Assembly (NCBI GenBank): GCA_016841425.1
Contig: JAENZE010000008.1
Coordinates: 1 to 64,000, forward strand
DNA length: 64,000 nt
DNA from: Syntrophomonas sp.
GTDB taxonomy: Bacteria; Bacillota; Syntrophomonadia; Syntrophomonadales; Syntrophomonadaceae
Direction: 5' to 3'
Part shown: piece by piece, positions 14,329 to 43,933 of the stretch
Layout: every line of letters begins with the position of its first letter
Numbering within the stretch: position 1 is the first letter of the stretch
Made by a program: the position numbers and the translations under genes
The notes under the pieces: model-generated
Seen by the model: only the letters and a program-made list of their open reading frames with translations
Databases searched by the model: none
What the model was told of the DNA's origin: nothing

Positions 14329-14371
14329 CTTGGCATCCTCCTCGCCCTTGTAATTCTCCTATCTCCTGGAT

Positions 14372-14782
14372 TTACTCAGGATCTCGCTGGCACAATTCCA
14401 GCAGTACCCCGCCAGTAGCTTTCGGGTGGATAAAGGCAATTTTAGCCCCCCCTGCTCCATATCGGGGTTTTTCGTCAATCAACTTGACTCCTTTATTCTT
14501 TAGTTCTTCCAGCGCGGCTTCAATGTCGTCCACCCGCAGAGCAATATGTTGAATTCCCTCACCATTTTTTTCAATAAACTTGCCAATCGGTCCGTCAGGA
14601 GATAGAGATTCCAAAAGCTCGATCTCTGATTCACCGGCTGGAATAAAAGCCGTTCTTACCTTTTGTTCTGTTACCTCCTCGGTTCCGGTAAGCTTTAAAC
14701 CGAGCAGATCGGTATAAAATTTTGCACTTTGATCTATGTTCTTAACAGCAATGCCGATGTGATCAACACATATGACCTTCAT
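14372..14782 (-). CDS. mce: Methylmalonyl-CoA epimerase
   Basis: The protein interconverts (R)- and (S)-methylmalonyl-CoA. It is a 136-residue vicinal-oxygen-chelate protein with paired beta-alpha-beta-beta-beta modules. Metal ligands are visible in [10 protein letters not shown] (His near 8), [13 protein letters not shown] (His near 81) and GVLLELCQ (Glu near 131). The ATG at 14782 follows GGGAGG by seven bases; the upstream ATG at 14797 has none. It lies between the mutase small subunit and the carboxyltransferase, giving a complete succinyl-CoA to propionyl-CoA route. Confidence 0.94.
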
Positions 14783-14823
14783 TTTATTACCTCCCATTTT
14801 TTAAATGGTATCCAGGCATATAA

Positions 14824-15228
14824 CTATGCTTTTTCAGTAACGTTGTTTTTTACGTATTCCACACAGGTACTGGTAGGGGTGCCGGGCGTAAATATCTCTG
14901 CAATCCCCGCTTCTTTAAGCAGGGGGATATCTTCGCCAGGAATAACTCCCCCTCCAATTACCAGGATATCGTCCATCTCCTTTTCTTTCAGCAAACGAGT
15001 GACTTTAGGCATTAAAGTGAGGTGCGAGCCCGAGAGCATGCTCATGGCTATGCAATCGACATCTTCCTGCTCCGCTGTGGCTACAATGCTTTCCGGTGTC
15101 TGCCTGAGTCCGGTATAAATAACCTCAAATCCTGCATCTCTGAAGGCCTGGGCTATTACTTTTGCTCCCCGGTCGTGTCCATCCAGACCAGGTTTCGCCA
15201 CCAATACTCTTATTCTCCTTTGTGTCAT
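14824..15228 (-). CDS. mcmA2: Methylmalonyl-CoA mutase small (B12-binding) subunit
   Basis: This 134-residue flavodoxin-like cobalamin domain carries the base-off B12 motif DxHxxG (GLDGHDRG, His near residue 19), the SxL motif (SMLSGS), and the GG motif ([11 protein letters not shown]). It pairs with the separate 558-residue catalytic subunit encoded just upstream. AGGAGG lies before the ATG. Split mutases of this size are known for both methylmalonyl-CoA and isobutyryl-CoA substrates; the large subunit's active-site residues point to methylmalonyl-CoA. Confidence 0.94.
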
Positions 15229-15259
15229 TTGACAACCCTCCTATATTTACGGTCAGGTC

Positions 15260-16936
15260 TTACAATGAAACCGCGGCAACGTATTCGCCCCATTCTTCAC
15301 GCAGAGTACCGCATATTTCTCCTTCAGTGGCATAAGCTTTCACCGCGTTTAGAATATACGGCATAATATTTTCATCACCCCGGGCCGCCTGGCGCAGTTC
15401 ATCTAACCGAGCAGCTACGGCTGCGTTATCACGCTTACTTTTCAGTTCATTCAATTTATCGATCTGGGTTTTCTGAACTGAAGGATCTACCCTTAGTAAC
15501 CCGGATGGTTCTGGTTCTTGAACCTGGAACTTATTTACCCCGACGATTATTCTTTCGCCGGATTCAACGTCCTTCTGCCACTGGTAGGCGGCTTTCTGAA
15601 TCTCACTCTGAATATATCCAATCTCAATGGCCTTTTCAGCGCCACCCATTTCTTCAATCTTTTGTATCTTTTCCCAGGCTTCGTTGTATATTTTATCAGT
15701 CAGGGCTTCAATGTAATAAGAACCAGCCAGAGGATCAATAGTATCAGCTACCCCTGATTCATAAGCTATAACCTGCTGGGTTCTTAAGGCAGTCATTACG
15801 GATTCTTCTGAAGGCAGGGCCAGAGCTTCATCTCGGGAATTGGTATGCAAAGACTGGGTCCCTCCCAGTACTGCCGCCAGCGCTTGGATACAGACCCGAA
15901 CGATATTATTGTTTACCTGCTGCGCAGTCAACATCGAACCGGCGGTCTGGGAATGGGTTCTAAACATCCAGGAACGTGGGTCCTTGGCCTTGAAATATTC
16001 TTTCATGATGTAGCCCCATAGTCTTCTGGCAGCTCTAAACTTGGATACTTCCTCCAGTAAATCATTATGGGCATTTAAGAAGAAAGACAGGCGGCCAGCA
16101 AATTTATCTACGTCCATACCCGCCTTAATTGCAGCTTTAACGTAAGCCATACCATTGGCAAAGGTAAAAGCAATCTCATCTACAGCCGTAGAACCAGCTT
16201 CTCTGATGTGATAGCCGGAAATGCTTATGGTGTTCCACTGCGGTACATGTTCCGAACAGAACTCAAATATGTTAGTTATAAGGCGCATGGAAGGCTGTAC
16301 GGGAAAAATATATGTTCCCCGAGCTGAATATTCCTTCAATATATCGTTCTGGATAGTTCCTCTCAGTTTATCAAAAGGAACTCCTTGTTGTTCCGCCACA
16401 GCCATATACATGGCCAACAGAACAGCAGCCGGGGCATTGATAGTCATGGAAGTGGATACTTTATCCAGCGGAATGCTATCGAATAATATCTCCATATCTG
16501 CCAGGGAGTCGATAGCTACCCCAACTTTACCAACTTCCCCTTCGCTCATGGGATGGTCTGAATCATATCCAATCTGGGTGGGTAAATCGAATGCTACTGA
16601 CAGCCCTGAACTGCCGTTGGCCAGCAAATATTTGTATCGTTTATTCGACTCTTCCGCAGTGGAAAATCCGGCATACATGCGCATGGTCCAAAGTTTGCCC
16701 CGATACATGGTGGGCTGTGGTCCGCGGGTAAAGGGATATTCACCAGGAAACCCCAGTTTTTCCATATAGTCACCGAAAGTATCCAGGGGAGTATATAAGC
16801 GGTCTATTTCGTTAAAACCACTGGAATAAAAAGTTTCTTTTCTTTCGCCCTGTTTGGCAATCGTCTTATCTACACTAACCTGCCATTTATCCATGGCCTG
16901 CTGAATTGCGCTTAATTCTTCTTTGCTATAAGACAC
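15260..16936 (-). CDS. mcmA1: Methylmalonyl-CoA mutase large subunit
   Basis: This is the catalytic TIM-barrel subunit that isomerises succinyl-CoA and (R)-methylmalonyl-CoA with adenosylcobalamin. Substrate-selecting residues match methylmalonyl-CoA mutase: Tyr88 in RMYAGFS (Phe in isobutyryl-CoA mutase) and Arg206 in [10 protein letters not shown] (Gln in isobutyryl-CoA mutase). Other conserved stretches are [11 protein letters not shown] near 70 and [14 protein letters not shown] near 365. The start is GTG at 16936, eight bases after GGAGG. It forms a run with cobO and meaB, which supply and protect the cofactor. Confidence 0.95.
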
Positions 16937-16992
16937 CTTCTTGGCCTCCTTTATACTTTAATTCCAAGTTAACAGCCGGAACACTTGAATAG

Positions 16993-18150
16993 TTATGCCC
17001 GGTTGGCGGAGAATCCCAGGGTGGCATTGGCAACAATCTGGGTATGCATATTGGAAGTGCCTTCCAGGGTCTCAAACTGCTTGCAGTCTCTCAGGAACCT
17101 TCCACAGGGATATTCGGTGGAGTAACCAAACGAACCATGCAGTTTCATACACTCGTTAGCGCCATGAACAGCTGCTTTAGCTCCAAATAGTTTGGCCATG
17201 GAAGTTTCCATTTGATTAGGCAGGTTGTTGTCCTTTAACCAAGCTGCTTTATAAACCATTGCCTCCAGGGCCGCATGCTCCATCTTCATCTCGGCAATCT
17301 GCTGCTGAATTAATTGGTATTTGCCAATTTGCTTACCAAATTGACTGCGCTCATTAGCATAACGGATGGAAGCGTCCAGACAGGCTTGAGACAGCCCTAG
17401 TGCACCAGCAGCACAGCCCAGACGGGTGGCATTAAGCTGGGTCATACACATGCTAAACCCCTGACCTACTTTGCCTAAAATAAGTTCCTTGGGTACTTTT
17501 ACATTTTCAAATACGATTTCTGCAGTATCGGATGCCCACAGACCGACCTTAGTTTTAATGGCGTTCCTGGTTATTCCGGGAAGACTGTAGTCCATTATAA
17601 AACAGGTAATTCCTTTGGCTCCTCCATCCTTGTCGGTTTTAACGTATAGAAGTCCATGGTCACAGACGGTTCCATTGGTAATCCACATTTTATGACCATT
17701 AAGCAGATAATAATCACCTTTATCTTCGGCACGGCATTTCATAGCAGCAACATCCGATCCCACATCAGCTTCAGTCATAGCAAAACTTCCAATATATTCT
17801 CCATTTACAAACTTGGGAATATAGTGATCCTTTTGCTCCTGGGTGCCAAATTTCTGAATAGTCAAAGCCGGTCCCCAGTCCTGCATATTGAAAGCCATAC
17901 GCCAGGAGGTATGAACTCTGGATATCTGTTCAATAACCAGGGCTCCTTCTAGAAATCCCATCCCATTACCGCCATATTGCTCATCAATGCAAAAACCAAA
18001 TAAACCCAATTCGGCCATCTTGTCAAAAATCTCTTTTCTCCAATAGTGGTTTTCCTCATCCTGATCCACGTAAGGAGCTATCTCGTTGTCAGCAAAATCT
18101 CTGGCCATAATCTGTACCATTTTCTGTTCTTCTGTCAATGCAAAATCCAT
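16993..18150 (-). CDS. Acyl-CoA dehydrogenase, glutaryl-CoA-dehydrogenase-like
   Basis: This 385-residue classical acyl-CoA dehydrogenase has the FAD site SFAMTEADVGSD (about 122-133) and the catalytic Glu363 in ETLEGTSNMH. Arg84 in TSWRMAFNMQ aligns with the Arg of glutaryl-CoA dehydrogenase (human Arg94) that binds the distal carboxylate, so a dicarboxylic acyl-CoA such as glutaryl-CoA is a candidate substrate. However, the residue before the catalytic Glu is Leu rather than Tyr, and the human Glu87 position is Ser, so substrate and decarboxylating ability are open. It lies between meaB and the mutase genes with GAGGAGG before its ATG, so it probably feeds or drains the methylmalonyl-CoA module. 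Confidence 0.85.
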   Translation of the reverse strand: MDFALTEEQKMVQIMARDFADNEIAPYVDQDEENHYWRKEIFDKMAELGLFGFCIDEQYGGNGMGFLEGALVIEQISRVHTSWRMAFNMQDWGPALTIQKFGTQEQKDHYIPKFVNGEYIGSFAMTEADVGSDVAAMKCRAEDKGDYYLLNGHKMWITNGTVCDHGLLYVKTDKDGGAKGITCFIMDYSLPGITRNAIKTKVGLWASDTAEIVFENVKVPKELILGKVGQGFSMCMTQLNATRLGCAAGALGLSQACLDASIRYANERSQFGKQIGKYQLIQQQIAEMKMEHAALEAMVYKAAWLKDNNLPNQMETSMAKLFGAKAAVHGANECMKLHGSFGYSTEYPCGRFLRDCKQFETLEGTSNMHTQIVANATLGFSANRA

Positions 18151-18284: not shown

Positions 18285-19256
18285 TTAAATCAGGGTTTGT
18301 CCCAGATATTTTAGAACTGCCTCCCGGGCTGCCGAATGGGGGTCACTCTTTCTACTGATAACTTGATCAATCATATCTTCCAGGCTATTCTCGGCAGCTA
18401 ATCGCTTCATTAGGAACTGCATGACTATGCCCTGCAGAGCTGCCTGTATTTCGAAAAGGGCCTTCCGTCTCTGTCTTTTCTTCAATGCCTTGTAATTACC
18501 TGAATAGTATTCATTATGCTGCATAATCTGTAAGGCTATCTCTTGGATACCTTTAACAAATTGCCGTTTATCCTCTTTACTGCCAACCCGGGTGATCGGA
18601 GGTCTCCAGTCACAATCAGCTGCTAAAGCCATATCCAGCAGTATGTTTATCTCACTTTTAAGCATTTCGGCTCCATCACGGTCAGCTTTGTTGATAACGA
18701 ATATATCTGCTATCTCCATTATCCCAGCTTTTAGGGTTTGTACTGCATCACCCATGCCTGGGACCAAAACCAGGATAACTGTATCAGCGTAGTTCATGAT
18801 TTCAACTTCCTGCTGACCTGTCCCCACTGTTTCGATGATTATAATGTCCTTTCCCATGCTATCAAGGATGTGAATACTATCGCCCACTGCTCTTGACAAT
18901 CCCCCCAGGGCTCCCCTGGTAGCCAGACTCCGGATAAAAACCTCCGGATCCTCAGCATGGCGCTGCATTCTAACCCGATCACCAAGTATTGCCCCTCCGG
19001 TAAAAGGACTGGAAGGGTCCACTGCCAGTACCCCTACAGTTTTTCCCTCTTTCCTGAACGCTGCAATTAAGCCATCGGTAAGGGTGCTTTTGCCCGCCCC
19101 CGGAGATCCAGTTAAGCCTATTACATGAGCATTACCGGTGTACGGATAAATTTTAGCAATACTCTCTTTAGCTTGTGGGAAATCGTCCTCGATGTTTCTT
19201 ATTAAACGCGAAGCAGCTCGCACGTTGCCTTGTAAAATTTTTTCATATAATTCCAT
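18285..19256 (-). CDS. meaB: Methylmalonyl-CoA mutase chaperone GTPase MeaB
   Basis: MeaB is a G3E-family P-loop GTPase that gates cofactor loading and protects the B12 mutase. Walker A is GLTGSPGAGKSTL (about 48-60), switch regions include VLAVDPSSPFTGG and GDRVRMQRH, the ETVGTGQQEVE segment is present, and the base-recognition NKAD motif is near 192. Length (323 residues) is normal. It is encoded between cobO and the acyl-CoA dehydrogenase/mutase genes on the same strand, as expected for a mutase partner. Confidence 0.95.
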   Translation of the reverse strand: MELYEKILQGNVRAASRLIRNIEDDFPQAKESIAKIYPYTGNAHVIGLTGSPGAGKSTLTDGLIAAFRKEGKTVGVLAVDPSSPFTGGAILGDRVRMQRHAEDPEVFIRSLATRGALGGLSRAVGDSIHILDSMGKDIIIIETVGTGQQEVEIMNYADTVILVLVPGMGDAVQTLKAGIMEIADIFVINKADRDGAEMLKSEINILLDMALAADCDWRPPITRVGSKEDKRQFVKGIQEIALQIMQHNEYYSGNYKALKKRQRRKALFEIQAALQGIVMQFLMKRLAAENSLEDMIDQVISRKSDPHSAAREAVLKYLGQTLI

Positions 19257-19281
19257 AATTGCATCCCTCTACTCACTGCTA

Positions 19282-19812
19282 TTAGAATTCAAATCCCTTT
19301 CGACCCGCAAAACCTTTGGTATAAGGATGCTTGATCTCTTTCATTTCTGTTACCAGATCAGCCAGTTCAATAAATTCCGGTGGAGCATATCTTCCTGTCA
19401 AACCAAGATATAGTTCTTTCGGTTTATTCTTGATCAAATCAAGTACGGCATCCAAAGGGATAAGTTTATAATCTACTGCCACATTAATCTCATCAAGAAT
19501 TACCATGTCATACTTCCCTGAATACATGGCTGTCTTTGCTGCTTCCAGACCTTCAAGAGCCAATTCTATGTCTATCGGAGAGAGATCACCTTTAATTACA
19601 AAACTGTCCCGTCCGCATTTATGCAATACCAGATCAGGCAGGTATTTCTCCGCGGCCAGCCATTCACCATAATCTCGCCCTTTCATAAACTGGGCCATAA
19701 ATACTCGCTTTCCATGTCCAACCGCCCGCAGTGCTAATCCAAGAGCAGCAGTAGTTTTTCCTTTACCGTTTCCGGTGTGTAAAAAAACGTAACCATGATT
19801 ATTATCCGGCAT
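19282..19812 (-). CDS. cobO: Cob(I)alamin adenosyltransferase, CobA/CobO type
   Basis: The enzyme makes adenosylcobalamin, the mutase cofactor, from reduced corrinoid and ATP. It carries a P-loop LHTGNGKGKTTAALG (about 11-25), AQFMKGRDYGEW (about 40-51) and the DEINVAVDY motif (about 107-115). The 176 residues match the family. GGGGAGAG lies seven bases before the ATG. It is the first well-supported gene of the methylmalonyl-CoA run, linking cofactor supply to the mutase. Confidence 0.95.
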   Translation of the reverse strand: MPDNNHGYVFLHTGNGKGKTTAALGLALRAVGHGKRVFMAQFMKGRDYGEWLAAEKYLPDLVLHKCGRDSFVIKGDLSPIDIELALEGLEAAKTAMYSGKYDMVILDEINVAVDYKLIPLDAVLDLIKNKPKELYLGLTGRYAPPEFIELADLVTEMKEIKHPYTKGFAGRKGFEF

Positions 19813-20116
19813 GATCTCTCCCCTTCCAATTGAAAGACTCCATACTGAACAGCGTATTCTCCCAATAACATGATATGCAGATATCGTGCCAACCCGAGCA
19901 GATATAGAGCATCTCCTTCATTACCTGAATCAGCTCGTTGGTATCTGTTGAACTACGGCTTGTATTACCTGCCCTGTCCTGTACCCCGCTAAGCAAATAC
20001 CATTTATCTGCTGCCTCGAAATACATCAACTTTATTGTCCAGTTATATGTACATGTGTACGGGCATACGAACAATGATTTGTGTAAAAACTCTTCTAAAA
20101 TTAATTGTCGTATCAA
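19802..20116 (-). CDS. Possible small protein upstream of cobO
   Basis: An open frame from TTG 20116 overlaps the cobO start by 11 bp. An internal ATG near 20023 would give about 74 residues. Neither start has a good ribosome-binding site. The sequence has several Cys/Trp residues and no recognisable domain. It may be only the leader of the cobO operon. Weak call. Confidence 0.25.
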   Translation of the reverse strand: MIRQLILEEFLHKSLFVCPYTCTYNWTIKLMYFEAADKWYLLSGVQDRAGNTSRSSTDTNELIQVMKEMLYICSGWHDICISCYWENTLFSMESFNWKGRDHAG

Positions 20117-20262
20117 CCTGAATGAAGTTTTTAATATGCGGTTTTATCAGGCTTATAGTTGATTAGCTTAATTTATTGTTAATTATATTGATTAAGCCAA
20201 GTTCATTCCCATCATGCTTCAATTACCTCCAGACACATAAAAAGATATACCCCTTTTTCTCC

Positions 20263-21144
20263 TTATATTCGGTAATAGAGGTCTGTGTCTGGTTCTTTTT
20301 GTACCAATCCCTGCCTTATTAATCTTTGCAGGTGCAAATACACACCTTGCTTCTCCCAGAACTGCAGATATCTGTCAGATTTGATCTTGAATCCATAGAA
20401 TAGTCTCAGTAAACTCAGTTCTTCCAGAGATATAGGTCTATCCAGGGCACCCAGTACTTCTTCTTCCTTGTGTAATATCTGATCCCGATAAGCTATAAAA
20501 CGAGCCCCGAGGTCAGGCTCAATTATCCCCTTATGGCCGGATATTACCAAACCTGGCTTTAATTCCATACATTTCTCAATAGAGTTAAGGTAATCGTCCA
20601 GGTCACTGCATATGTGCAGGTACCAGGGCCCCCAGGCACTTAAATCGATATCACCGCTGATCAATATACCGCTGTGCTCTTCGAACAGGACACAGTGACC
20701 GGGAGTATGACCCGGTGTGTGAATAACTTTTAAGCGCACTTTCCCCAGATCCAGGATTTCATTGTCCTTAAGCTCACGATGCACAGGGCGATCCGTTATT
20801 CCGTTGACCTGAATAAAAAGTCGTCCCATGTCTTCTTCTGCAAAGGCATTAAACCCATATCTTTCCATATGCACATTTGCGGATCGAATACCGGCAGCAT
20901 CAAGGCCGTGGCACCATATCTGAACCTGCCCTATGTTCTGGTTCTGTCTGGTATGATCCCAGTGGAAGTGAGTATTGATCACTATATCAAGTCCCTGTTC
21001 CCGAAGCTCTGCAGCTATATTAGAGCTGCAGCCGCTATCTATTAAAACTCGAGTTTGATCTTTTATTAACACGCAGTAACAGTAAGGGAATCCAGCCCGT
21101 TTAGATTTAACTAAATTAAGATGCTTGTTTATGGGAATAATCAT
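20263..21144 (-). CDS. Metallo-beta-lactamase-fold hydrolase
   Basis: The 293-residue protein has the MBL zinc signature THFHWDH (about 72-78), the second-site HTPGHTPGH (about 145-153) and GDID(L) (about 165). A C-terminal winged-helix-like region follows (residues about 225-293). I use ATG 21144, just after GAGAGGAG; ATG 21162 lies six codons upstream. Such proteins include thioesterase-like and glyoxalase-like hydrolases; substrate is unknown. A second MBL protein is encoded at 46148 next to a sigma-54 promoter. Its neighbours suggest an acyl-CoA-related role, which is inference. Confidence 0.82.
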   Translation of the reverse strand: MIIPINKHLNLVKSKRAGFPYCYCVLIKDQTRVLIDSGCSSNIAAELREQGLDIVINTHFHWDHTRQNQNIGQVQIWCHGLDAAGIRSANVHMERYGFNAFAEEDMGRLFIQVNGITDRPVHRELKDNEILDLGKVRLKVIHTPGHTPGHCVLFEEHSGILISGDIDLSAWGPWYLHICSDLDDYLNSIEKCMELKPGLVISGHKGIIEPDLGARFIAYRDQILHKEEEVLGALDRPISLEELSLLRLFYGFKIKSDRYLQFWEKQGVYLHLQRLIRQGLVQKEPDTDLYYRI

Positions 21145-21347
21145 GCTTCTCCTCTCAGCCATTGGCTTGATATTCCAACCATACCATTGGCTTTCTTTGT
21201 GTGTTTCCTGGCTGTAGTTGAATACTGCCGCCCCAGGTTCGAATAGATGCTGCCCATGGTATCTACACCATTACGGCAGACCATAACGTTGATAATATTA
21301 TGAAACCACTTGGTACGACTGGTTTTCCTCTTTGGCTTCTTAGCTTA

Positions 21348-21758
21348 TTAACCCCTTCTTATGTAGGTAACCGTAGAGTGTGAAATGCTCTTACCCTCCT
21401 CATCCAGCACCTTTACATCACCAAAAATAAGTCTTCTCCCATTCTTTATGACCCTGGCTTCTGCATAGAGATCAGTCTGGCTAGTGGGGTTAAGAAAGTT
21501 CGTCTTCAGTTCTGCGGTTGAAAGATTTCCAGTAGCCTCTAGACCTGTCATGGTTGCCATAGCAAAATAGAAAGCTATATCGGCCAGAGTCAGCAAGGCA
21601 CCCCCATGCGTATTTTTCCAGGAGTTGGTAAATACTGGATTGTAGGGCATCTTAATCTTACTGTAGCCTTCTCGAATATCTATAAACTGTATGTTGAAAT
21701 ACTGGTTAACAGGAACCCGGTTCATATGCATCTGGCAGTCTTCCAGGGTAATCTGCAT
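21348..21758 (-). CDS. PaaI-type hotdog thioesterase
   Basis: This 136-residue single hotdog domain has the signature HGGALLTLADIAFYFAM (about 51-67), in which the His-Gly-Gly helix forms the active site with a downstream Asp. It would hydrolyse an acyl-CoA, probably to release CoA from dead-end products. AGGAGGAG precedes the ATG. It lies downstream of the thiolase-crotonase-hbd run, separated from it by a hairpin at 21798-21835, so it may be transcribed separately. Confidence 0.88.
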   Translation of the reverse strand: MQITLEDCQMHMNRVPVNQYFNIQFIDIREGYSKIKMPYNPVFTNSWKNTHGGALLTLADIAFYFAMATMTGLEATGNLSTAELKTNFLNPTSQTDLYAEARVIKNGRRLIFGDVKVLDEEGKSISHSTVTYIRRG

Positions 21759-21797
21759 GGCTTAGCTCCTCCTATCTTTGATCTTTCCATATAATAA

Positions 21798-21835
21798 ACG
21801 ATTTCCCCTCCTGCCAGAGCAGGGGAGGAAATCGT
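21798..21835 (-). terminator. Terminator of the beta-oxidation run
   Basis: Sixteen- to seventeen-base GC-rich arms with two wobble positions (ACGATTTCCCCTCC pairing across a short loop), followed on the minus strand by TTTATTAT. It lies after the thiolase-like gene ending at 21911. Confidence 0.7.
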
Positions 21836-21910
21836 ATTTCTTTGAGGCAGGCTAAATTTAATTAGTGCAATTTAGAGTGCTTTCCTGGTAATGTAGCCTC
21901 AAATATCTAT

Positions 21911-23095
21911 TTAACGTTTAATGATGATGGTGAACGATTGTCCTCCCAGGGCTCCTACATTTATCAGCCCGGTGGTGGCTCCCATCTGCTGCAGCCGGTA
22001 AATCATGTTAACGACCATAGCTCCGCCGGTAGCTGCTCCAGCATGCCCAAAGGCCAGGCTTGAACCGTTTACATTGATTTTGCCAGCTGCGTCCGGCCCC
22101 AGCTGTTCGGCTACAGCTAATGCGTATGCTGCAGAGGGTTCATGAATGTCAATGAAATTTACATCTTTAAGGGTCAGATTGGCAAATTTCAAAGCTTTTT
22201 CTATAGATTTAATTGTTGTTCTTTCTATCAATTTGGGATTTCCTGCCGTGATAGCAAACCCGGCCATACTAGCCATCAGGCTGGCTCCCCATTCTTTAGC
22301 TTTATCAGCAGAGGCTAGAATGACCGATGCCGATCCATCAGCTAGCGGAGCAGTGTTTCCCGGGGTGGCAGTACCATCCTGGTTTATTGAGGGCAGGGCC
22401 ATTAACTCTTCGATAGATGCTGTGACGGGACCCTGATCCATATCAACAATTACTTCTTTTTTCTTAACTTTTTTAGTTAAAGCTACCATAGCGTCTTTCA
22501 TCAATCCGTTCTTAACTGCCTCTACTGCTCTGGACTTGCTGTCCAGTGCATATTCGTCCAGCAGTGCACGGCGCAATCCATAATTGCGGGCGATAAAGTC
22601 AGCAATGTCGGCAGCGCTCTGACTTCCGTATATCTCCACCGGCTGGGCATTAGTCTCTATTTCAACCCTTTGATCATGGAAACAGAAATTATGCGGTCCA
22701 AAATTATACCTGGGATGTTCAATGTAGTAAGGTGCCTGACTGTTAGTCTCGACCCCACCGGCTAAAATAGACTGGTATTCTCCTGCTACGATTTTGCTGA
22801 ATCCGCTGATCATGGTTTCAAGTGCTCCAGCGCACAAAGCGTTTAATGTATATCCGGCTGGATTCTCATCCAGTCCGGCCAGCAGCCATCCGTGTCTTCC
22901 CACATTAGCGGGTAGGCTGGTCTGGATAGATTCGCTGAAAATACTGGTATCCAACTGCGATGAGTCAATCCCAGCACGTATTACGGCTTCCTTCATTGAA
23001 CTGGCGGCCAGGTCCTGGCTTCTTAGATCCGCTATCGAGCCCTTGTACAGTCCAAATGGTGTTCGCGCCGCACCGATTATTACGACTTCCTGCAT
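21911..23095 (-). CDS. Divergent thiolase-superfamily protein lacking the second catalytic Cys
   Basis: The 394-residue protein has the thiolase fold and the nucleophile Cys88 (NALCAGALE). It also has GHAGAATGG with His351. The canonical NEAF motif is replaced by HEPSA (318-322), and the C-terminal CxG loop that supplies the second catalytic Cys reads NVGALGGQS (379-387) with no Cys. It could be a non-thiolytic or condensing variant, a thiolase with altered chemistry, or a CoA-binding partner of the full thiolase encoded next to it (23113). It starts 17 bases after that gene's stop, so the two are co-expressed. Sequence quality elsewhere is normal, so this is not a decaying gene. Confidence 0.82.
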   Translation of the reverse strand: MQEVVIIGAARTPFGLYKGSIADLRSQDLAASSMKEAVIRAGIDSSQLDTSIFSESIQTSLPANVGRHGWLLAGLDENPAGYTLNALCAGALETMISGFSKIVAGEYQSILAGGVETNSQAPYYIEHPRYNFGPHNFCFHDQRVEIETNAQPVEIYGSQSAADIADFIARNYGLRRALLDEYALDSKSRAVEAVKNGLMKDAMVALTKKVKKKEVIVDMDQGPVTASIEELMALPSINQDGTATPGNTAPLADGSASVILASADKAKEWGASLMASMAGFAITAGNPKLIERTTIKSIEKALKFANLTLKDVNFIDIHEPSAAYALAVAEQLGPDAAGKINVNGSSLAFGHAGAATGGAMVVNMIYRLQQMGATTGLINVGALGGQSFTIIIKR

Positions 23096-23112
23096 AGCAA
23101 ACCCTCACTTTC

Positions 23113-24339
23113 CTAATCCAAACGTTCGATGATGCTGGCCACGCCAATACCACCGCCGCAGCACATAGTTGACAGGCCATAGCGTCCTCCGGTCCGTTCC
23201 AGTCCATACAACAATTTAGTGGTAATGATGGCTCCGCTGCCACCCAGGGGATGTCCGATGGCAATAGCTCCACCCCAGAGATTGATGTGCTTGTCACACC
23301 ACTCCGAATCAATCCCATAGTCTTTTTCCCACTCCCGTAGAACAGCTATACTCTGGCCGGCAAATGCTTCATTAAGTTCTATTACATCAATATCTTTTAG
23401 GGTGAGACCGGCCTTTTCCAGAGCAATTTTCGTTGCCGGAACTGGCCCGCGGCCCATGATAGTTGGGTCTACTCCAGCTACACCGGCAGTTAAGAATCTA
23501 GCCCGAGGTTTTATCCCTAATTCATCCGCTTTCTCCCGGGACATAATCAAGGCTACCGCTGCACCGTCGTTTCTTCCCGATGAATTACCTGCCGTTACTG
23601 AGCCATCCTTTTTGAAGGCAGGTTTAAGCTTGGCCAGAGCTTCCGGGGTAGTTGCACGGGGGTATTCATCCACCTGATAAACCCCGATACTCCCATCGGT
23701 TTTTTGATAGGTTACAGGCACTATCTCAGCCTTAAAATCCCCGTTAGCGATAGCTTTAAGAGCCAGTTCCTGGCTGCGAAAACCAAATTGGTCCTGTTCT
23801 TCACGAGGTATCTGATGAATATCCACCAAGTTTTCAGCAGTTATACCCATAGGAATATTCCCATATCTCTCTACTGGAGCTGCTCCCGGTCCGCCGGTAG
23901 TGATGGAGTCCCTGAGGGCTACATCTCCATTGCCAAAGGCGTAATTGGTCCCATAGGTTAAAAAGAACTCCCCACCGCTCATTACTTCAACGCCTCCGGC
24001 CAGCACCACATCGGCAAAACCGTTCTTAATAAACTCGTATCCTTCAACAATGGACTGCAAACCAGATCCGCAGGCAATAGTAACACTGATTCCGGGAACA
24101 GTATCTGGCAGCCCTGCTTTTAAAGCCAGGTTTCTGGCGATATTAGCGCAGCTGGAATTCTGTTTAACTTGCCCTAGAAACACGTAATCATAGTCCTGGG
24201 GCTTAACTTTTCCCTTATTGCGGTCTATAACTGCTTTAGCTATCTGGGAAACAAGATCAATGGGCGGAACGTCCTTTATGGTCCCGCCATGTTTCCCGAC
24301 AGCGCTTCTTGCCATATCTACTATGACAACTTCTCGCAT
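23113..24339 (-). CDS. Acetyl-CoA acetyltransferase (thiolase)
   Basis: The enzyme cleaves 3-ketoacyl-CoA to acetyl-CoA in beta-oxidation. All catalytic elements are present: Cys in ACGSGLQSIVEG (near 90), NEAFAGQ (near 325), GHPLGGSGA (His near 362), and Cys in MCCGGGIG (near 392). The length of 408 residues is typical. AGGAGGG precedes the ATG. It lies between a crotonase gene and the divergent thiolase gene on the same strand, consistent with a butyrate or longer fatty-acid degradation operon. Confidence 0.94.
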   Translation of the reverse strand: MREVVIVDMARSAVGKHGGTIKDVPPIDLVSQIAKAVIDRNKGKVKPQDYDYVFLGQVKQNSSCANIARNLALKAGLPDTVPGISVTIACGSGLQSIVEGYEFIKNGFADVVLAGGVEVMSGGEFFLTYGTNYAFGNGDVALRDSITTGGPGAAPVERYGNIPMGITAENLVDIHQIPREEQDQFGFRSQELALKAIANGDFKAEIVPVTYQKTDGSIGVYQVDEYPRATTPEALAKLKPAFKKDGSVTAGNSSGRNDGAAVALIMSREKADELGIKPRARFLTAGVAGVDPTIMGRGPVPATKIALEKAGLTLKDIDVIELNEAFAGQSIAVLREWEKDYGIDSEWCDKHINLWGGAIAIGHPLGGSGAIITTKLLYGLERTGGRYGLSTMCCGGGIGVASIIERLD

Positions 24340-24382
24340 ATATAATCCCTCCTAATCTAACCTGGAGAAAACTGTGTGCAAA

Positions 24383-25165
24383 TTATTTACCTGTATAAAC
24401 AGGTTTCCTCTTTTCCAGGAATGCTGTCATTCCTTCTTTTTGATCGCTGCTGGCAAATGCCAGGGAGAAACAAGCATTTTCTATTGATTCAGCAGTGTTT
24501 ATGTCCATATTAATAGCGTTATTAATACCATATTTAGCCAGCCCAATTGCAACAGGACTGTGCTGGGATATAGTTCGGGCCATTTTCAATGCTTCTTCCA
24601 TCAACTGATCATCAGGAACTACTTTATTCACCATGTTGATTCTTAAAGCCTCATCCGCCTTGACCGGCTTACCGGTTAATACGAGTTCCTTGGCTTTGCC
24701 TATACCAACCAGCTTGGGCAGACGAGAAAGTCCTCCTCCTCCTGGCAGTATGCCTATGTTGATCTCAGTTTGTCCCATGACCGCACTCTCTGCGGCTATA
24801 CGTATATCACAGGCCAGTGCCAATTCGCAGCCGCCACCCAGTGCAAAGCCAGCCACAGCAGCAATTATCGGTTTTCTTGATCTTTCCATCTTGGTGGCCA
24901 ATTCCCATAGGGATATCCGGTTAAAAGCCTCGTGAGCAGTTTGTTTAACCATGGCAGCTATATCGGCTCCAGCTGAAAATACTTTTGGCCCCCCGGTAAT
25001 GATGATTGCTCGCACATCCGGGTCATGCTCCCATTCAACTATTGCCTGGTACACCTCTTGCCGCAGAACATAGTCTATTGCATTACGTACTTCCGGCCGA
25101 TTTAAAGTGATCAGCCCTACCTTATCCTGCTCAAGCTTTTCTACCAGAATGGTAGTGTAAGCCAT
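24383..25165 (-). CDS. Enoyl-CoA hydratase (crotonase)
   Basis: The protein hydrates 2-enoyl-CoA to 3-hydroxyacyl-CoA. The oxyanion-hole motifs SAGADIAAM and GFALGGGCELALACD are present, and both catalytic Glu residues are in place (GGGCEL near 114 and TEINIGILPG near 134, numbered from the ATG at 25165). That start follows GAGGTG; a GTG nine bases upstream is less likely. With the downstream thiolase and upstream 3-hydroxybutyryl-CoA dehydrogenase it completes a beta-oxidation set. Confidence 0.94.
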   Translation of the reverse strand: MAYTTILVEKLEQDKVGLITLNRPEVRNAIDYVLRQEVYQAIVEWEHDPDVRAIIITGGPKVFSAGADIAAMVKQTAHEAFNRISLWELATKMERSRKPIIAAVAGFALGGGCELALACDIRIAAESAVMGQTEINIGILPGGGGLSRLPKLVGIGKAKELVLTGKPVKADEALRINMVNKVVPDDQLMEEALKMARTISQHSPVAIGLAKYGINNAINMDINTAESIENACFSLAFASSDQKEGMTAFLEKRKPVYTGK

Positions 25166-25185
25166 TTTGTTCACCTCTTTTATCT

Positions 25186-26073
25186 TTAGAACTTCACGTC
25201 AGTTCTGGGTTTTTTCTCTCCACTGCTGTAGTCATACCAGCCCTTGCCGGTCTTTCTGCCCAGGTCGCCGGAGATGTTTAGTTTCTCAAGAGTTGCATTT
25301 GGTGCAAAACGAGCATCCTTATAACCAGCATATAAAGTGCTAGCCACGTTGAAGCCTACGTCCAAACCAACAAAATCAGCCAGTTCGAATGGTCCCATGG
25401 GGTGATTTAATCCAAACTTAATGGCTTTGTCGATATCTTCAATAGTTGCTACGCCCTCTTCCATACAGCGATAGGCTTCGTTCCTGAATGCTGCATTAAT
25501 ACGGTTTACAATAAATCCAGGAACGTCTTTGGAGATTACGGTTACTTTGCCCATTTTTTCGGCTACTTCAATGGTTGTTGCTACACATTCATCGGAAGTC
25601 TTGATGCCACGAATGATTTCACACAGTCTCATAACCGGTACCGGGCTGAAGAAATGCATTCCGATAAAATTGGCAGGACTCTTCACTGCTGCTGCAATCT
25701 TGGTGATAGGAATTGAAGAGGTGTTGGTGGCCAAAACAGCTCCAGCAGGGCAGATTGCTTCTAACTTCTGGAAGATTTCCTTTTTCAGTTCAAAGTTCTC
25801 AAAAACGGCTTCAATGGCCATTTCACAATCTTTTGCATCTTCAAGTTTGGTGCTGGGAACGATTAAGGCCATGGCTGCATCCATATCAGCCTGGGACATT
25901 TTGCCTTTTTCAACGTTTCTGCTTAATATCTTCTTAATACCAGCGATGCCTTTTTCTACAGCTGCCTCTGAAATATCATAAAGATGCATCTTATAACCAG
26001 CCTGAGCTCCCACTTGAGCAATACCGGCTCCCATGAATCCAGCGCCTACGACCATGATTGTTTTAACTTCCAT
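25186..26073 (-). CDS. hbd: 3-hydroxybutyryl-CoA dehydrogenase
   Basis: This NAD-dependent enzyme oxidises (S)-3-hydroxybutyryl-CoA to acetoacetyl-CoA. The N-terminal Rossmann motif is GAGFMGAGIAQV (about 9-20) with Asp32 favouring NAD. The catalytic segment is IGMHFFSPVPVMRLCEI (His near 138). The C-terminal domain includes NHPMGPFELADFVGLDV. The length of 295 residues is close to clostridial Hbd. AAAGGAGAGAG precedes the ATG. It is followed by crotonase and thiolase genes. Confidence 0.95.
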   Translation of the reverse strand: MEVKTIMVVGAGFMGAGIAQVGAQAGYKMHLYDISEAAVEKGIAGIKKILSRNVEKGKMSQADMDAAMALIVPSTKLEDAKDCEMAIEAVFENFELKKEIFQKLEAICPAGAVLATNTSSIPITKIAAAVKSPANFIGMHFFSPVPVMRLCEIIRGIKTSDECVATTIEVAEKMGKVTVISKDVPGFIVNRINAAFRNEAYRCMEEGVATIEDIDKAIKFGLNHPMGPFELADFVGLDVGFNVASTLYAGYKDARFAPNATLEKLNISGDLGRKTGKGWYDYSSGEKKPRTDVKF

Positions 26074-26133
26074 TTTTCTCTCTCCTTTTCTGGTAATTTT
26101 CCTTATTATGTCAGAATATTCCCGATATTATGC

Positions 26134-26172
26134 CAGGAAGGAGTTCCATCATACCTGGATAACTCCTTCCTG
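26134..26172 (-). terminator. Hairpin between thiolase and hbd genes
   Basis: Twelve-base perfect arms (CAGGAAGGAGTT and its complement) with a 15-base loop. It may end or attenuate the thiolase transcript (26195-27376) before hbd. Confidence 0.55.
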
Positions 26173-26194
26173 TACAACGGTTAAAACACTTATG

Positions 26195-27376
26195 CTATCC
26201 AACCCATTCCCAAACAGCAGCTGCGCCCTGTCCATGTCCAATGCACATACTTTCAACTGCATATTTAACTCCGTAATAAGGCATTTCATGCATTATGGTG
26301 GTAGCTATACGAGCTCCAGTACATCCCAGAGGATGACCTAAAGATATTCCGCTGCCTTTTGGATTCAGAAGTTCATGATTCCTGATGCCCAGGAATTCTG
26401 TACAATACACAGCCTGGGAAGCAAAAGCTTCATTTATTTCCCACAGTTGTATATCTTTGACTTCCATTCCAGCCCGCTTGAGTGCCAGAGGTACTGCCAG
26501 GGTCGGTCCTATTCCCATTTCCGCCGGGTTACATCCTATTGCCGCATAGGATACTAACTTCATAAGCGGCTTTAAGCCCAATTCCTGACATTTTTCTTTA
26601 CTGGCCAGCAACACGCAAGCAGCAGCATCGTTAGTCTGACTGGAATTACCTGCAGTTACAGTTGCCAGCTCATCCTGCATAAAAACAGGTTGCAGCTTGG
26701 CCAGGCTTTCCATAGTGGTCTGCGGTCTGATTCCCTGATCCTTATCAACTACCAATTTTTCAGTGCCTCCGTCCTTGGTTGGAGCGTCAACTTCTATCGG
26801 CAGTATTTCATCTTTAAAGAGTCCATCGACCGTTGCTTTATGAGCCTTGGCATGACTTTCTACCGCCATCTGGTCCTGTTTTTCCCGGCTAACTCCATAT
26901 TTGCGGGCCACTACTTCAGCTGTATATCCCATGCTGGACATTTTAGGATCGGCAAATTCAACCAGACGGGGATTAGGTTCGGCCATGAAACCCATCGGTA
27001 TGTGGGTCATGTGCTGAACTCCACCGGCCAGCATGATCTCTCCCCAACCCATGTTAATGGCGGCTATGGCAAAAGCGATAGACTGCAAACCAGAAGAACA
27101 AAAGCGGTCTACTGTACATCCTGCTACACTGTAGGGCAGGCCAGCCATAATATTAGCATAGCGACCAATGTTGGCTCCCATGTCTTTCATCAATGCTGTT
27201 CCACCCCATACTACGTCATCAATCTGTTCTTTATTGTTTTCCAACCCGGCCCTGCGTATGGCCTCATTCATAACCAGGGCTGACATATCATCAGCTCTCA
27301 GGTTGGCAAACCATGAATTCTTGCCAGCTTTGGCCAGTCCTGTCCTGGCACTTGAAACAACATATACTTCTCTCAT
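26195..27376 (-). CDS. Acetyl-CoA acetyltransferase (thiolase)
   Basis: This complete thiolase has the nucleophile Cys in DRFCSSGLQSIA (near 89), NEAFASQAV (near 343), GHPLGCTGAR (near 370), and the second Cys in SMCIGHGQG (near 382). GGGG lies seven bases before the ATG at 27376; another ATG at 27382 is very close to the site. A sigma-54 promoter lies about 445 bp upstream, so it leads the 26-21 kb beta-oxidation run, with a hairpin before hbd. It differs in the C-terminal loop from the thiolase at 23113, so the two probably differ in chain length. Confidence 0.93.
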   Translation of the reverse strand: MREVYVVSSARTGLAKAGKNSWFANLRADDMSALVMNEAIRRAGLENNKEQIDDVVWGGTALMKDMGANIGRYANIMAGLPYSVAGCTVDRFCSSGLQSIAFAIAAINMGWGEIMLAGGVQHMTHIPMGFMAEPNPRLVEFADPKMSSMGYTAEVVARKYGVSREKQDQMAVESHAKAHKATVDGLFKDEILPIEVDAPTKDGGTEKLVVDKDQGIRPQTTMESLAKLQPVFMQDELATVTAGNSSQTNDAAACVLLASKEKCQELGLKPLMKLVSYAAIGCNPAEMGIGPTLAVPLALKRAGMEVKDIQLWEINEAFASQAVYCTEFLGIRNHELLNPKGSGISLGHPLGCTGARIATTIMHEMPYYGVKYAVESMCIGHGQGAAAVWEWVG

Positions 27377-27820
27377 TACCATTCCCCTTTTCTGTTGTAG
27401 ATTAGAGTTAAACCAAATATAGCTACAAAAGTTTCTATACTAAAAGCCTCAGGGTGAAGATGTTGACTTTTTGTTCCGCCCCTGGACCCTACCTTTGGTT
27501 CGCACCTCCCTGGTTAGGTCTCTCGGTTTTGAAATTAAAAGACATTCCGGCATTTAATCCAGGCCAGGCTGGATAAATTATAAGATTAATCTATAGGCAT
27601 CGTTGTACCACCCGATTATATTTAAGTTTTTAGGTATTTACCTACCCCATTTTCTAAAATTCACCAGTAATATTAATATCAATGCTTAAAACATCATTAT
27701 AAGATAATCGAACGCTGCTCAATATAGATGTTATTCTGCTAAGATTGCCGTGTTACCACCCTCTTTCTTACTAGTACAACGGTATATAAACATACATTAC
27801 GTTCCTGTTATCACTAAAAC

Positions 27821-27835
27821 GCAATTTATATGCCA
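27821..27835 (-). promoter_or_regulatory. Sigma-54 promoter of the thiolase run
   Basis: TGGCATATAAATTGC on the minus strand, GG to GC spacing 10. The same 15 bases recur at 30346-30360. It drives the thiolase gene at 26195-27376 through a leader of about 430 bases. A type-A palindrome lies about 100 bp upstream. Confidence 0.82.
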
Positions 27836-27935
27836 ACTATTTCACATAGGATTATACCCGGCAAAAAAGGCATAAATGAGGCTTTTAGAAAGATACCCGG
27901 CTGATTTTCTTATTGCAAAACCACTGTTCATTAAC

Positions 27936-27951
27936 CCGCACATATGTATGG
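27936..27951. promoter_or_regulatory. Activator site, type A, shared by divergent sigma-54 promoters
   Basis: CCGCACATATGTATGG, a 16-base palindrome-like site of the CCRYACA-N2-TGTATGG type. It lies 100 bp from the leftward promoter at 27821 and 130 bp from the rightward promoter at 28082, so one site could serve both the thiolase operon and EBP2. Confidence 0.55.
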
Positions 27952-28081
27952 GTTGGTGGACAATTTTAGGCTTCATAACCAGCATTGCATGAGTCCTGCA
28001 ATATTGAGTGTATCATTAAGGTAAACCTGACTGGGGGAACAAGGAAGAAGCTGTACCGATGGTTTATTATTCATACTGCTT

Positions 28082-28097
28082 TGGCATAAGACTTGCA
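28082..28097 (+). promoter_or_regulatory. Sigma-54 promoter of the EBP2 gene
   Basis: TGGCATAAGACTTGCA, GG to GC spacing 10. The start would be near 28108. An activator gene with its own sigma-54 promoter implies autoregulation or control by another activator. An inverted repeat (ATACAGATT at 28134-28142 and AATCTGTAT at 28149-28157) lies in the leader. Confidence 0.78.
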
Positions 28098-28208
28098 ACG
28101 TGTATTATAAAAATACAGCAAGATAGATAAATGATACAGATTGGAGCTAATCTGTATTGTTAATGCAGGTTTTTCAGAGTTGTACACCAGTAATAAGGGG
28201 GGGGGGTT

Positions 28209-30098
28209 ATTCTGACTGATCAAGAAGTTGGATCTCAGATTATAAAACAAGCCTGGCATTCCTTTGTCACAAAGGGGGTCGTTGGGGTTGATGTAGTACG
28301 GCCAGAAATAGTTAAATCATGGTATCGCAGCAAGCATATTGATCCTCTCGAAGGGCTCCAACCCAGATTATCCAACGGAATGCTGTTAGTGAAGCAGACT
28401 CAACATCGTGAACTCCTATCAACTGCCCGCCCCATTATGGAAGAGTTATTTGCTATGATGGATAGAGGTCTGGTATGTATCGCTGATAATGAAGGGTTTG
28501 TTTTGGAGGTAATAGGCAATACCGAATTTGTTCCTCCGGGAACTTTATGCAGCGAAGCACACGCTGGCACTAATTGCATAGGAACTTCCCTGGTGGAAGA
28601 AAAACCTCTGGAGATTATAGGATTTGAGCACTACCGTCGTTGTTTGCATGCGCTTAATAGTGCTGCTGCACCAGTAAAGGCTGATTCTGAAATCATCGGA
28701 GTACTATGCGCCATCAGTCCTTTTCATGACTTACCAAAGGATGTTTTGCAGATCATTAGTTTTGCTGCTAAAACTATTGGCAGTCAGGTTAGTGAAAAGA
28801 CGAAAATCGATTCTATTATTGATTGTCTGCAATATGGTCTTTTTATTATCAATGGAAATGGGATCATAGTTAATATAAACAAGAGAACCCAAGAATTATT
28901 AGGGTTTGAGCATAGAAAGGACATTATTAGTCAACCATTAAGCACTTACGTTCCTAATGCCAGGGAACTGTTGGAAATCCTTATGGAAGAGGATGAAAAT
29001 AAAATCTTGTTTGAAATAATTACCAAAAATAAAATCTTAACCTGTACCCTGCGGGTGAAAAAGAAACTTCGTAAGTCCGCCAATCGGCAGGATACAGTAA
29101 TCCTGTTTTCTTTCTCTGATAATTCCAGTATTACTAGAAAACCAGTCCGTCCAAAGACCGACCATCATCTTTTTACTTTTGATGATCTGGTGGGATGTAG
29201 TACCGCCTGGCAGTATGTTGTTGCATTAGGATTAAAGGCTGCTAGGGTGAAGTCAACCATTTTGATAACGGGCGAAAGTGGGACAGGAAAAGAGATGTTT
29301 GCCCAGGCTATTCACTATGCCAGTAATCGAAAAGGCCCTCTGGTACCAATCAATTGTGGAGCAATTCCTAAAGAATTATTACAGAGTGAACTGTTTGGAT
29401 ATGCCGAAGGTTCTTTTACCGGAGCCAAAAAGGGTGGTTCAATGGGAAAATTCGAAATGGCGGATGGTGGGACGCTTTTTTTAGATGAGATAGGCGAAAT
29501 GCCGATGGAGATGCAGGTTAGCTTACTCCGATTCTTGCAGGATAAGAAGGTTATTCGAGTCGGGGCCGCTAATCCCAAAATTGTCGACGTGCGTATAATT
29601 GCTGCCACCAATATTGATTTAGCAGAAGCTGTTATGGAAAATAAATTCCGAGACGATCTTTACTATCGTCTTAATGTCATAAATATTGAATTGCCAGCCC
29701 TGCGTGATCGGAAGGAAGATATACCTTTGCTGGTTAGTAGTATTATCCAGGATCTATGTCAGGAAGTATATCAGGATATAACACAGCTGGAAAATGAAAC
29801 CCTGGAGATTCTTATGGGATACAACTGGCCGGGAAATGTAAGAGAGCTGCGGAATGTTATAGAACATGCGGTAGTATTTGCAGAAGGTGCTCCTATTACA
29901 CCTGCCTGTCTGCCGCTGCGTTTACTTGACTTCAAGGAGACCGATCAAGCTAAAGATTTAAAAGGTCACGAGCTGGAAATAATAAAGAAGTTTTTGAACC
30001 AAAATAATGGTAATATTTCAGAAACAGCCCGGGCTCTAGGTATCACCCGCAGTACTTTATACCGAAAACTAAATAATATCAAAAAGGTTCCTACCTAG
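28209..30098 (+). CDS. Sigma-54 activator with GAF-type and PAS domains (EBP2)
   Basis: The frame is open and protein-like well upstream of the first in-frame ATG (28380): it runs from a ten-G tract at 28197-28206, through RPEIVKSWYRS, typical of AcoR-like activators. No ATG, GTG or TTG exists in this frame before 28380, so initiation is at ATT 28209 or CTG 28212, or the G tract is miscounted. With nine G, the ATG at 28163 would be in frame. Counting from ATG 28380: GAF-like sensor about 15-140, PAS about 145-250, AAA+ about 265-510 (Walker A GESGTGKE 298-305, GSFTGA 345-350), and Fis-type helix-turn-helix at the end (SETARALGITRSTLYRKL). It probably controls the adjacent thiolase run. Confidence 0.9.
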   Translation: MLTDQEVGSQIIKQAWHSFVTKGVVGVDVVRPEIVKSWYRSKHIDPLEGLQPRLSNGMLLVKQTQHRELLSTARPIMEELFAMMDRGLVCIADNEGFVLEVIGNTEFVPPGTLCSEAHAGTNCIGTSLVEEKPLEIIGFEHYRRCLHALNSAAAPVKADSEIIGVLCAISPFHDLPKDVLQIISFAAKTIGSQVSEKTKIDSIIDCLQYGLFIINGNGIIVNINKRTQELLGFEHRKDIISQPLSTYVPNARELLEILMEEDENKILFEIITKNKILTCTLRVKKKLRKSANRQDTVILFSFSDNSSITRKPVRPKTDHHLFTFDDLVGCSTAWQYVVALGLKAARVKSTILITGESGTGKEMFAQAIHYASNRKGPLVPINCGAIPKELLQSELFGYAEGSFTGAKKGGSMGKFEMADGGTLFLDEIGEMPMEMQVSLLRFLQDKKVIRVGAANPKIVDVRIIAATNIDLAEAVMENKFRDDLYYRLNVINIELPALRDRKEDIPLLVSSIIQDLCQEVYQDITQLENETLEILMGYNWPGNVRELRNVIEHAVVFAEGAPITPACLPLRLLDFKETDQAKDLKGHELEIIKKFLNQNNGNISETARALGITRSTLYRKLNNIKKVPT

Positions 30099-43770: not shown

Positions 43771-43933
43771 CAAATTGTCATCTGCCTTTCTTTTAATTAG
43801 TCTTGAATTTATCTTCTGTGATAATTTCCTCTCACTGCTGGGATCATCTAACCTTCAAATATCCCTCCTAACCTCTTAATTAGCTTTTTCCATCAGCTAC
43901 AATGTTCTAATGCATTTATATGGACTCACTGAT

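Follow-up and report, generated by a model that had tools for sequence, protein, structure and literature searches.

A Thiolase-Fold Protein Without the Second Catalytic Cysteine, Inherited Beside an Intact Thiolase in the Order of Syntrophomonas

Introduction

What remains for a thiolase to do once residues of thiolysis are gone, and why would such a protein be inherited next to an intact copy? A gene of Syntrophomonas sp. raises this question. Within a stretch of 64,000 nucleotides (hereafter, the window), a β-oxidation gene run encodes a complete thiolase (THL), directly followed by a thiolase-fold protein that has no cysteine in the CxG position (THLX). Plain thiolases generally consist of identical subunits. 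Among the condensing enzymes of the same superfamily, KS-CLF is a heteromer in which an active subunit of the thiolase fold is joined by a degenerate one. In the FabH-like heterodimer PqsB/PqsC, all three catalytic residues are missing from PqsB, which probably serves as a scaffold for PqsC (PMC4807248, in part). Here, we examine which residues THLX has exchanged, how firmly the gene is bound to THL, and whether THLX is best read as a relic, an enzyme in its own right, or a subunit of a mixed thiolase.

Results

The gene run is read from the minus strand in the order FadA-like thiolase, 3-hydroxybutyryl-CoA dehydrogenase, enoyl-CoA hydratase, THL, THLX, and hotdog thioesterase (Table 1). Promoter/terminator consensus scans of positions 19200–28400 gave counts of 11 against a shuffle mean of 18.5 and 9 against 7.8, about the same as or fewer than in the shuffles.

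Table 1. Position of THLX, its altered motifs, and neighboring genes within the window
Feature	Position	Strand	Remark
THLX, thiolase-fold protein lacking a CxG cysteine	21911–23095	−	394 aa plus stop
Cys88-Ala89 codons, nucleophile position	22829–22834	−	CxS loop changed to CAG; counted from ORF start 23095
KKVKK, codons 208–212	22460–22474	−	presumed cationic-loop tip region; counted from ORF start 23095
HEPS, codons 318–321	22133–22144	−	where thiolases have NEAF; counted from ORF start 23095
His351 codon	22043–22045	−	GHP loop changed to GHA; counted from ORF start 23095
GALGG, codons 381–385	21941–21955	−	replaces the CxGGG loop; Cys-free; counted from ORF start 23095
THL–THLX gap	23096–23112	−	17 nt; GTGAGGG is a possible ribosome-binding site; gap 17–23 nt in 12/12 pairs
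THL, complete thiolase	23113–24339	−	408 aa; Cys90/Asn323/His363/Cys393; constant THLX neighbor
Enoyl-CoA hydratase	24383–25174	−	same gene run
3-Hydroxybutyryl-CoA dehydrogenase	25186–26073	−	
Second complete thiolase, FadA-like	26195–27382	−	
Hotdog-fold thioesterase	21348–21758	−	downstream of THLX

The window holds several other genes outside this run. A row at 12790–18150 (−) encodes an acyl-CoA dehydrogenase, a two-part methylmalonyl-CoA mutase, an epimerase, and an mmdA-like carboxyltransferase. The dehydrogenase is nearest to the non-decarboxylating glutaryl-CoA dehydrogenase model NF045552 (406 bits, cutoff 470). The mutase keeps the Tyr of RMYAGF and the Arg of ARGTYIF, like human MCM, and not the Ile/Gln of 2-hydroxyisobutyryl-CoA mutase; we take these two positions to be the ones that tell the two mutases apart. 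The row could serve a propionyl/succinyl-CoA or a glutaryl/ethylmalonyl-type branch. A carboxyltransferase-domain protein (PF01039; 58410–60155, −) and a Na+-transporting decarboxylase β subunit (PF03977; 61003–62127, +) may belong to a sodium-pumping acyl-CoA decarboxylase. Two sigma-54-dependent activators, of the GAF-PAS and CBS-PAS types, are encoded at 28380–30098 (+) and 10337–12448 (−); the former is divergent from the THL–THLX gene run, and relatives of the latter lie near THLX at four other loci (L038, L040, L044, and L046).

By profile, THLX is a thiolase. It matches both Pfam domains, PF00108 (Thiolase_N) with 157.7 bits and PF02803 (Thiolase_C) with 65.7 bits, and its 282.2 bits against the general thiolase model TIGR01930 (acetyl-CoA C-acyltransferase) exceed the cutoff of 240.55. 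For each equivalog model among the 25 families listed (of 45), the score stays far under the cutoff. A single-chain model built from 59 aligned sequences (mean pLDDT 94.9, pTM 0.94) predicts the thiolase fold. The best structural match listed is the thiolase of Clostridium acetobutylicum (4wyr; 33% identity, Z 61.7, and an rmsd of 1.4 across 389 residues), and many thiolases among the matches listed have Z scores no more than 1 to 2 units away. An earlier model, made from 11 alignment rows, was discarded as poor (pLDDT 42.8).

Residues were counted in an alignment of 12 THLX (window copy included), 12 THL, and 37 other thiolases. This 61-row set leaves out L017, repeats and others with identical sequence (L001, L018, L020, and more), the long neighborhood loci L037–L046, and matches with less than 85% query coverage. 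The original prediction, made from the window copy alone, held that Cys88 and His351 were kept, that HEPSA stood in place of NEAF, and that the C-terminal Cys loop had no cysteine. These readings are confirmed, and the changes are shared by the 12 THLX. Cys88 (within LCAGA) and His351 (within FGHAGAATGG) are present in 12/12 THLX, as are His318-Glu319 and Ser321. Position 318 is His in every THLX and Asn in the 49 other thiolases; the loop that it opens reads HEPS in 10 of the 12 and HEQS in two. At position 381, the place of the second Cys, the window copy has Gly (in NVGALGGQ) and the family Gly or Ala (12/12), as opposed to Cys in 49/49 other thiolases.

The alignment showed the changes to be wider than had been claimed. 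CxS, NEAF, GHP, and CxG are the four catalytic fingerprints of thiolases (PMC6790690, in part), and all four are altered in THLX: CxS to CAG/CGG, NEAF to HE[PQ]S, GHP to GHA, and CxG to [GA]A[LF], Gly383 of the last being Leu or Phe. A stand-in for the missing cysteine, which would have spoken against the original prediction, was sought among the remaining cysteines. The window copy has two, 88 and 138, and Cys138 (own numbering) occurs in just 6/12 orthologues; position 88 is the one conserved column, so no conserved Cys could replace the second catalytic one. The Asn-to-His change has a precedent, as structure 2wku is, by its title, the N316H variant of the Zoogloea thiolase; the exchange has therefore already been made artificially in a thiolase.

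The 12 orthologues that share the changes speak against sequencing error as the cause. Of the 17 thiolase-family genes read in the window genome, 16 carry all four catalytic residues and THLX is the sole exception. Because the changes are common to all orthologues and unique to THLX within its own genome, they are not chance: THLX is a conserved family and not a product of decay. The paralogue set of this genome (G000) is large; two members (L004 and L005) are nearly identical, and another, at 42595–43773 (−), is a very divergent thiolase with an end branch of 1.71 and a full tetrad.

The losses reach beyond the catalytic residues. Among 45 columns that are near-invariant in the other thiolases (at least 47/49), THLX keeps 25 (in at least 11/12) and replaces 20, six by one fixed residue and 14 by variable or mixed residues (one of them, Thr244, merely Thr/Ser). 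Met161-Gly162, present in 49/49 other thiolases, vary across THLX, with six different residues at the first position and three at the second; Phe237 is replaced by Ile/Val and Phe321, the NEAF Phe, by Ser. When the segments listed as lining the pantetheine tunnel of human T2 (PMC6790690, in part) are transferred by motif, the start of Lα2, the pantetheine loop, and the NEAF Phe fall among the lost positions. That CoA-tunnel residues are both lost and variable weighs against THLX as an independent acyl-CoA enzyme.

Orthologues of THLX were found in 12 of 63 genomes of the order (E up to 1e-90), and those of THL in the same 12 (E up to 1e-150), with none carrying one gene alone at these thresholds. 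All 12 pairs are adjacent on the same strand, THL first, with 17–23 nt between the genes; the complete thiolase that the original prediction had placed 17 bases upstream is the window's case of this spacing. The pair was not found in the other 51 order genomes, many of the genomes being drafts. A class-level search covers the same 63 genomes and returned the same 12. Among 61 relatives, some of them also in the order set, searches with THLX and with THL picked out one and the same group of 11 genomes, and identity dropped clearly to the next match (62% to 36% for THLX, 68% to 52% for THL). A named-genome scan returned nine loci, two of them orthologues (89% and 66%) and seven at 22–30% identity. 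Across 398 genomes of the phylum, with up to four candidates scored per genome, 11 genomes were over E 1e-85, five of them of the order; the seven matches in the other six are ordinary NEAF/CxG thiolases, leaving no THLX relatives beyond the order in this search.

The surroundings of the pair, compared in the window and ten neighborhoods, vary while THL and THLX stay together. At L038, the hydratase and dehydrogenase are missing upstream, and the two genes are still adjacent. The methylmalonyl-CoA mutase set was seen at 4/11 loci (window, L037, L041, and L042); L043 and L045 end at contig ends and give little information. Inheritance right beside one intact thiolase suggests that THL and THLX form a single mixed enzyme and not two, although the products of adjacent genes may also act in one pathway and yet not associate.

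Could THLX nonetheless be a decaying duplicate without function? It has lost two of the four catalytic residues as well as the CoA tunnel, and its stem branch is long (1.57). Across the same four orthologue pairs, dN/dS (Nei-Gojobori; dS above 1 in two pairs) is 0.058–0.093 for THLX and 0.030–0.073 for THL, so THLX is under strong constraint by purifying selection. With the frame intact in 12/12, the same replacements fixed, and the spacing conserved, we give the idea of a functionless duplicate almost no credence.

Of 66 genome pairs, 65 show greater divergence in THLX than in THL. The distances of the two proteins are correlated (r 0.88), as should be the case for any two genes that are linked and passed on vertically; since THL/THLX is the only gene pair run, the correlation is weak evidence alone. 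Each protein forms one clade with support 100/100, the tree bootstrap being not fully settled. In the best tree, the two clades are not sisters, and the sister topology is not rejected (log-likelihood 0.39 lower, p-AU 0.318; tested with 12 of the 24 pair rows and 17 of the 37 other thiolases). The long branches leave the origin of both proteins unsure. A longer loop (QP...YG or [AG]P...YG) is common to the alignment rows of THL, THLX, and the L070–L076 thiolases. The THL clade is itself unusual: its stem measures 0.94, and 12/12 members have both an Asp at the tip of the cationic loop and CCGGG as the CxG loop.

The invariance of Cys88, His318, Glu319, and His351 keeps the option of a different reaction alive. 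Elongating ketoacyl synthases KAS I/II use Cys-His-His, and Cys88, His318, and His351 presumably occupy the corresponding positions of FabF-type synthases. THLX could then be an active, non-thiolytic enzyme that forms an acyl-enzyme on Cys88 and uses His318/His351 as the elongating β-ketoacyl synthases do, for decarboxylative Claisen condensation, decarboxylation of malonyl/methylmalonyl groups, or acyl relay to a partner. When the THLX alignment was compared with FabF of the same genome by hhalign, His318 was paired with the His of NAHGTGT, and GHAGAATG (His351) with GHMLGAAG; by eye, the last loop of THLX (GALGG or AAFGG) resembles LGFGG of FabF. Ser321 is invariant as well, the window carries a methylmalonyl-CoA mutase/mmdA set downstream of THLX, and the thiolase-like SLP of T. 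brucei is said to decarboxylate malonyl-CoA, at a very low kcat (PMC12329534, in part).

Other observations speak against such an enzyme. With a probability of 5.8 and an E of 0.0065, the match to FabF is weak; it leaves the Cys region outside, whereas THL matches FabF better and with the Cys region included (probability 85.5). At E 0.001, THLX matches neither PF00109 nor PF02801, while THL does match PF00109, and Ser346 stands where FabF has the Lys of STKAAHGH. The mutase set was seen at just 4/11 loci, the CoA tunnel is degraded, and a chemistry of its own, taken alone, would leave the bond to THL unexplained. We regard a non-thiolytic enzyme as the main rival reading, if on balance unlikely.

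A separate role for THLX on a THL product or substrate, for example as a thiolase-fold lyase or aldolase that forms no complex with THL, appears improbable. We take the YDCY and YDHF loops of the aldolases Sal and Ltp2 to correspond to NEAF. Both enzymes are thiolase-like and use such loops (PMC12329534, in part), and THLX has HEPS there; the YDCY/YDHF motifs themselves are absent from THLX, and its CoA site is degraded. Moreover, aldolases of the Sal/Ltp2 type pair with a DUF35 subunit, and a Pfam scan of 15 window proteins gave no DUF35 match.

A further hint comes from the cationic loop. Thiolase active sites require loops from other subunits, and in human T2 the cationic loop points at the CoA of the opposing dimer (PMC6790690, in part). 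We took the loop tip as columns 211–212, the turn between strands 206–210 and 213–217 of the THLX model, an assignment by place in an alignment that does not include human T2. Lys or Arg occurs at 211 or 212 in 12/12 THLX, in 0/12 THL, and in 33/37 other thiolases; THL has Asp212 in 12/12. Loss of the tip lysine is not specific to THL, as 4/37 other thiolases are without K/R, and in the window genome W_26195, W_42595, L083, and L084 have no KK at the tip. The reciprocal pattern is a hint of a mixed THL–THLX enzyme: that the protein without a CoA site keeps the loop serving its neighbor, and the one with a CoA site has lost its own, is the imprint expected from an obligate mixed tetramer.

Discussion

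We consider THLX to be, probably, a CoA-blind, non-thiolytic partner subunit of THL in a two-gene thiolase of β-oxidation. THL–THLX would form an obligate hetero-oligomeric thiolase, most likely α2β2, in the order of Syntrophomonas. THL, with its full Cys/Asn/His/Cys tetrad, would perform thiolysis. THLX, which has lost the acid/base Cys, the catalytic Asn, and the pantetheine/CoA tunnel, would have been retained for completing and shaping the THL active site across subunit contacts. Its lysine-rich cationic loop may cover the CoA bound to THL of the opposing dimer, and the THL loop, facing a CoA-free THLX site, may for that reason have lost its lysines. From the sequences, we infer a physical THL–THLX complex, its stoichiometry and loop exchange, and a THLX that alone would have no thiolase activity.

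Of the two options in the original prediction, a partner subunit gains from the co-occurrence in 12/63 genomes, the fixed order, the 17–23-nt spacing, and the reciprocal loop. A different Claisen-type or acyl-transfer reaction loses ground with the CoA tunnel, though four residues of the site are invariant. The same Cys88-His318-Glu319-His351 set, kept in 12/12, exceeds what a pure scaffold needs and counts against the simplest form of the mixed enzyme. A further reading is a two-site mixed thiolase: THL would thiolyse β-ketoacyl-CoA, and THLX, with a FabF-like Cys-His-His set and no usual CoA uptake, would accept or relay the acyl group or sense acyl load within the same complex, with loops exchanged. 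This version strikes us as distinctly unlikely; if true, a syntrophic catabolic gene run would encode what the ketosynthase/chain-length-factor pair is among ketosynthases, built here from thiolases.

Known systems resemble the pair in part. THLX is like plain thiolases (TIGR01930; e.g., 4wyr) in its fold, both Pfam domains, the nucleophile Cys, the GH His, and its β-oxidation gene run, and differs in having no CxG cysteine, a His for the Asn, and a lost CoA tunnel. With PqsBC and KS-CLF it shares the arrangement of active and degenerate paralogues side by side, co-inherited here in 12/12; in the putative THL–THLX enzyme, however, the active partner is a full-tetrad thiolase, the degenerate one has retained its Cys and His, and the gene run is catabolic. 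The DUF35-dependent complexes likewise hold a thiolase-fold subunit in a mixed complex, although the extra subunit is a DUF35 protein (PMC12329534, in part) and in THL–THLX would be a second plain thiolase. SCP2-thiolases and SLP have an altered NEAF-type loop that begins with His (HDCF) or Tyr (YDCF) (PMC12329534, in part), but carry a Cys inside it, whereas HEPS/HEQS of THLX is Cys-free. BbsCD of anaerobic toluene degradation, a heterotetramer with inactive pseudoenzyme subunits according to a title cited in PMC10818641, is also a β-oxidation enzyme, but a short-chain alcohol dehydrogenase of another fold and step. Syntrophomonas wolfei proteome papers, in the parts available, mention acetyl-CoA acetyltransferases, and the openly licensed literature searched for such pairs yielded no thiolase with a degenerate thiolase subunit.

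THLX is a warning for annotation pipelines: as it passes the TIGR01930 cutoff, it would count as an active thiolase in pathway models. If the conserved pair is mixed, a housekeeping homo-oligomer would have turned into an obligate hetero-oligomer, following the course taken by ketosynthases, and would have done so in organisms that run β-oxidation close to equilibrium.
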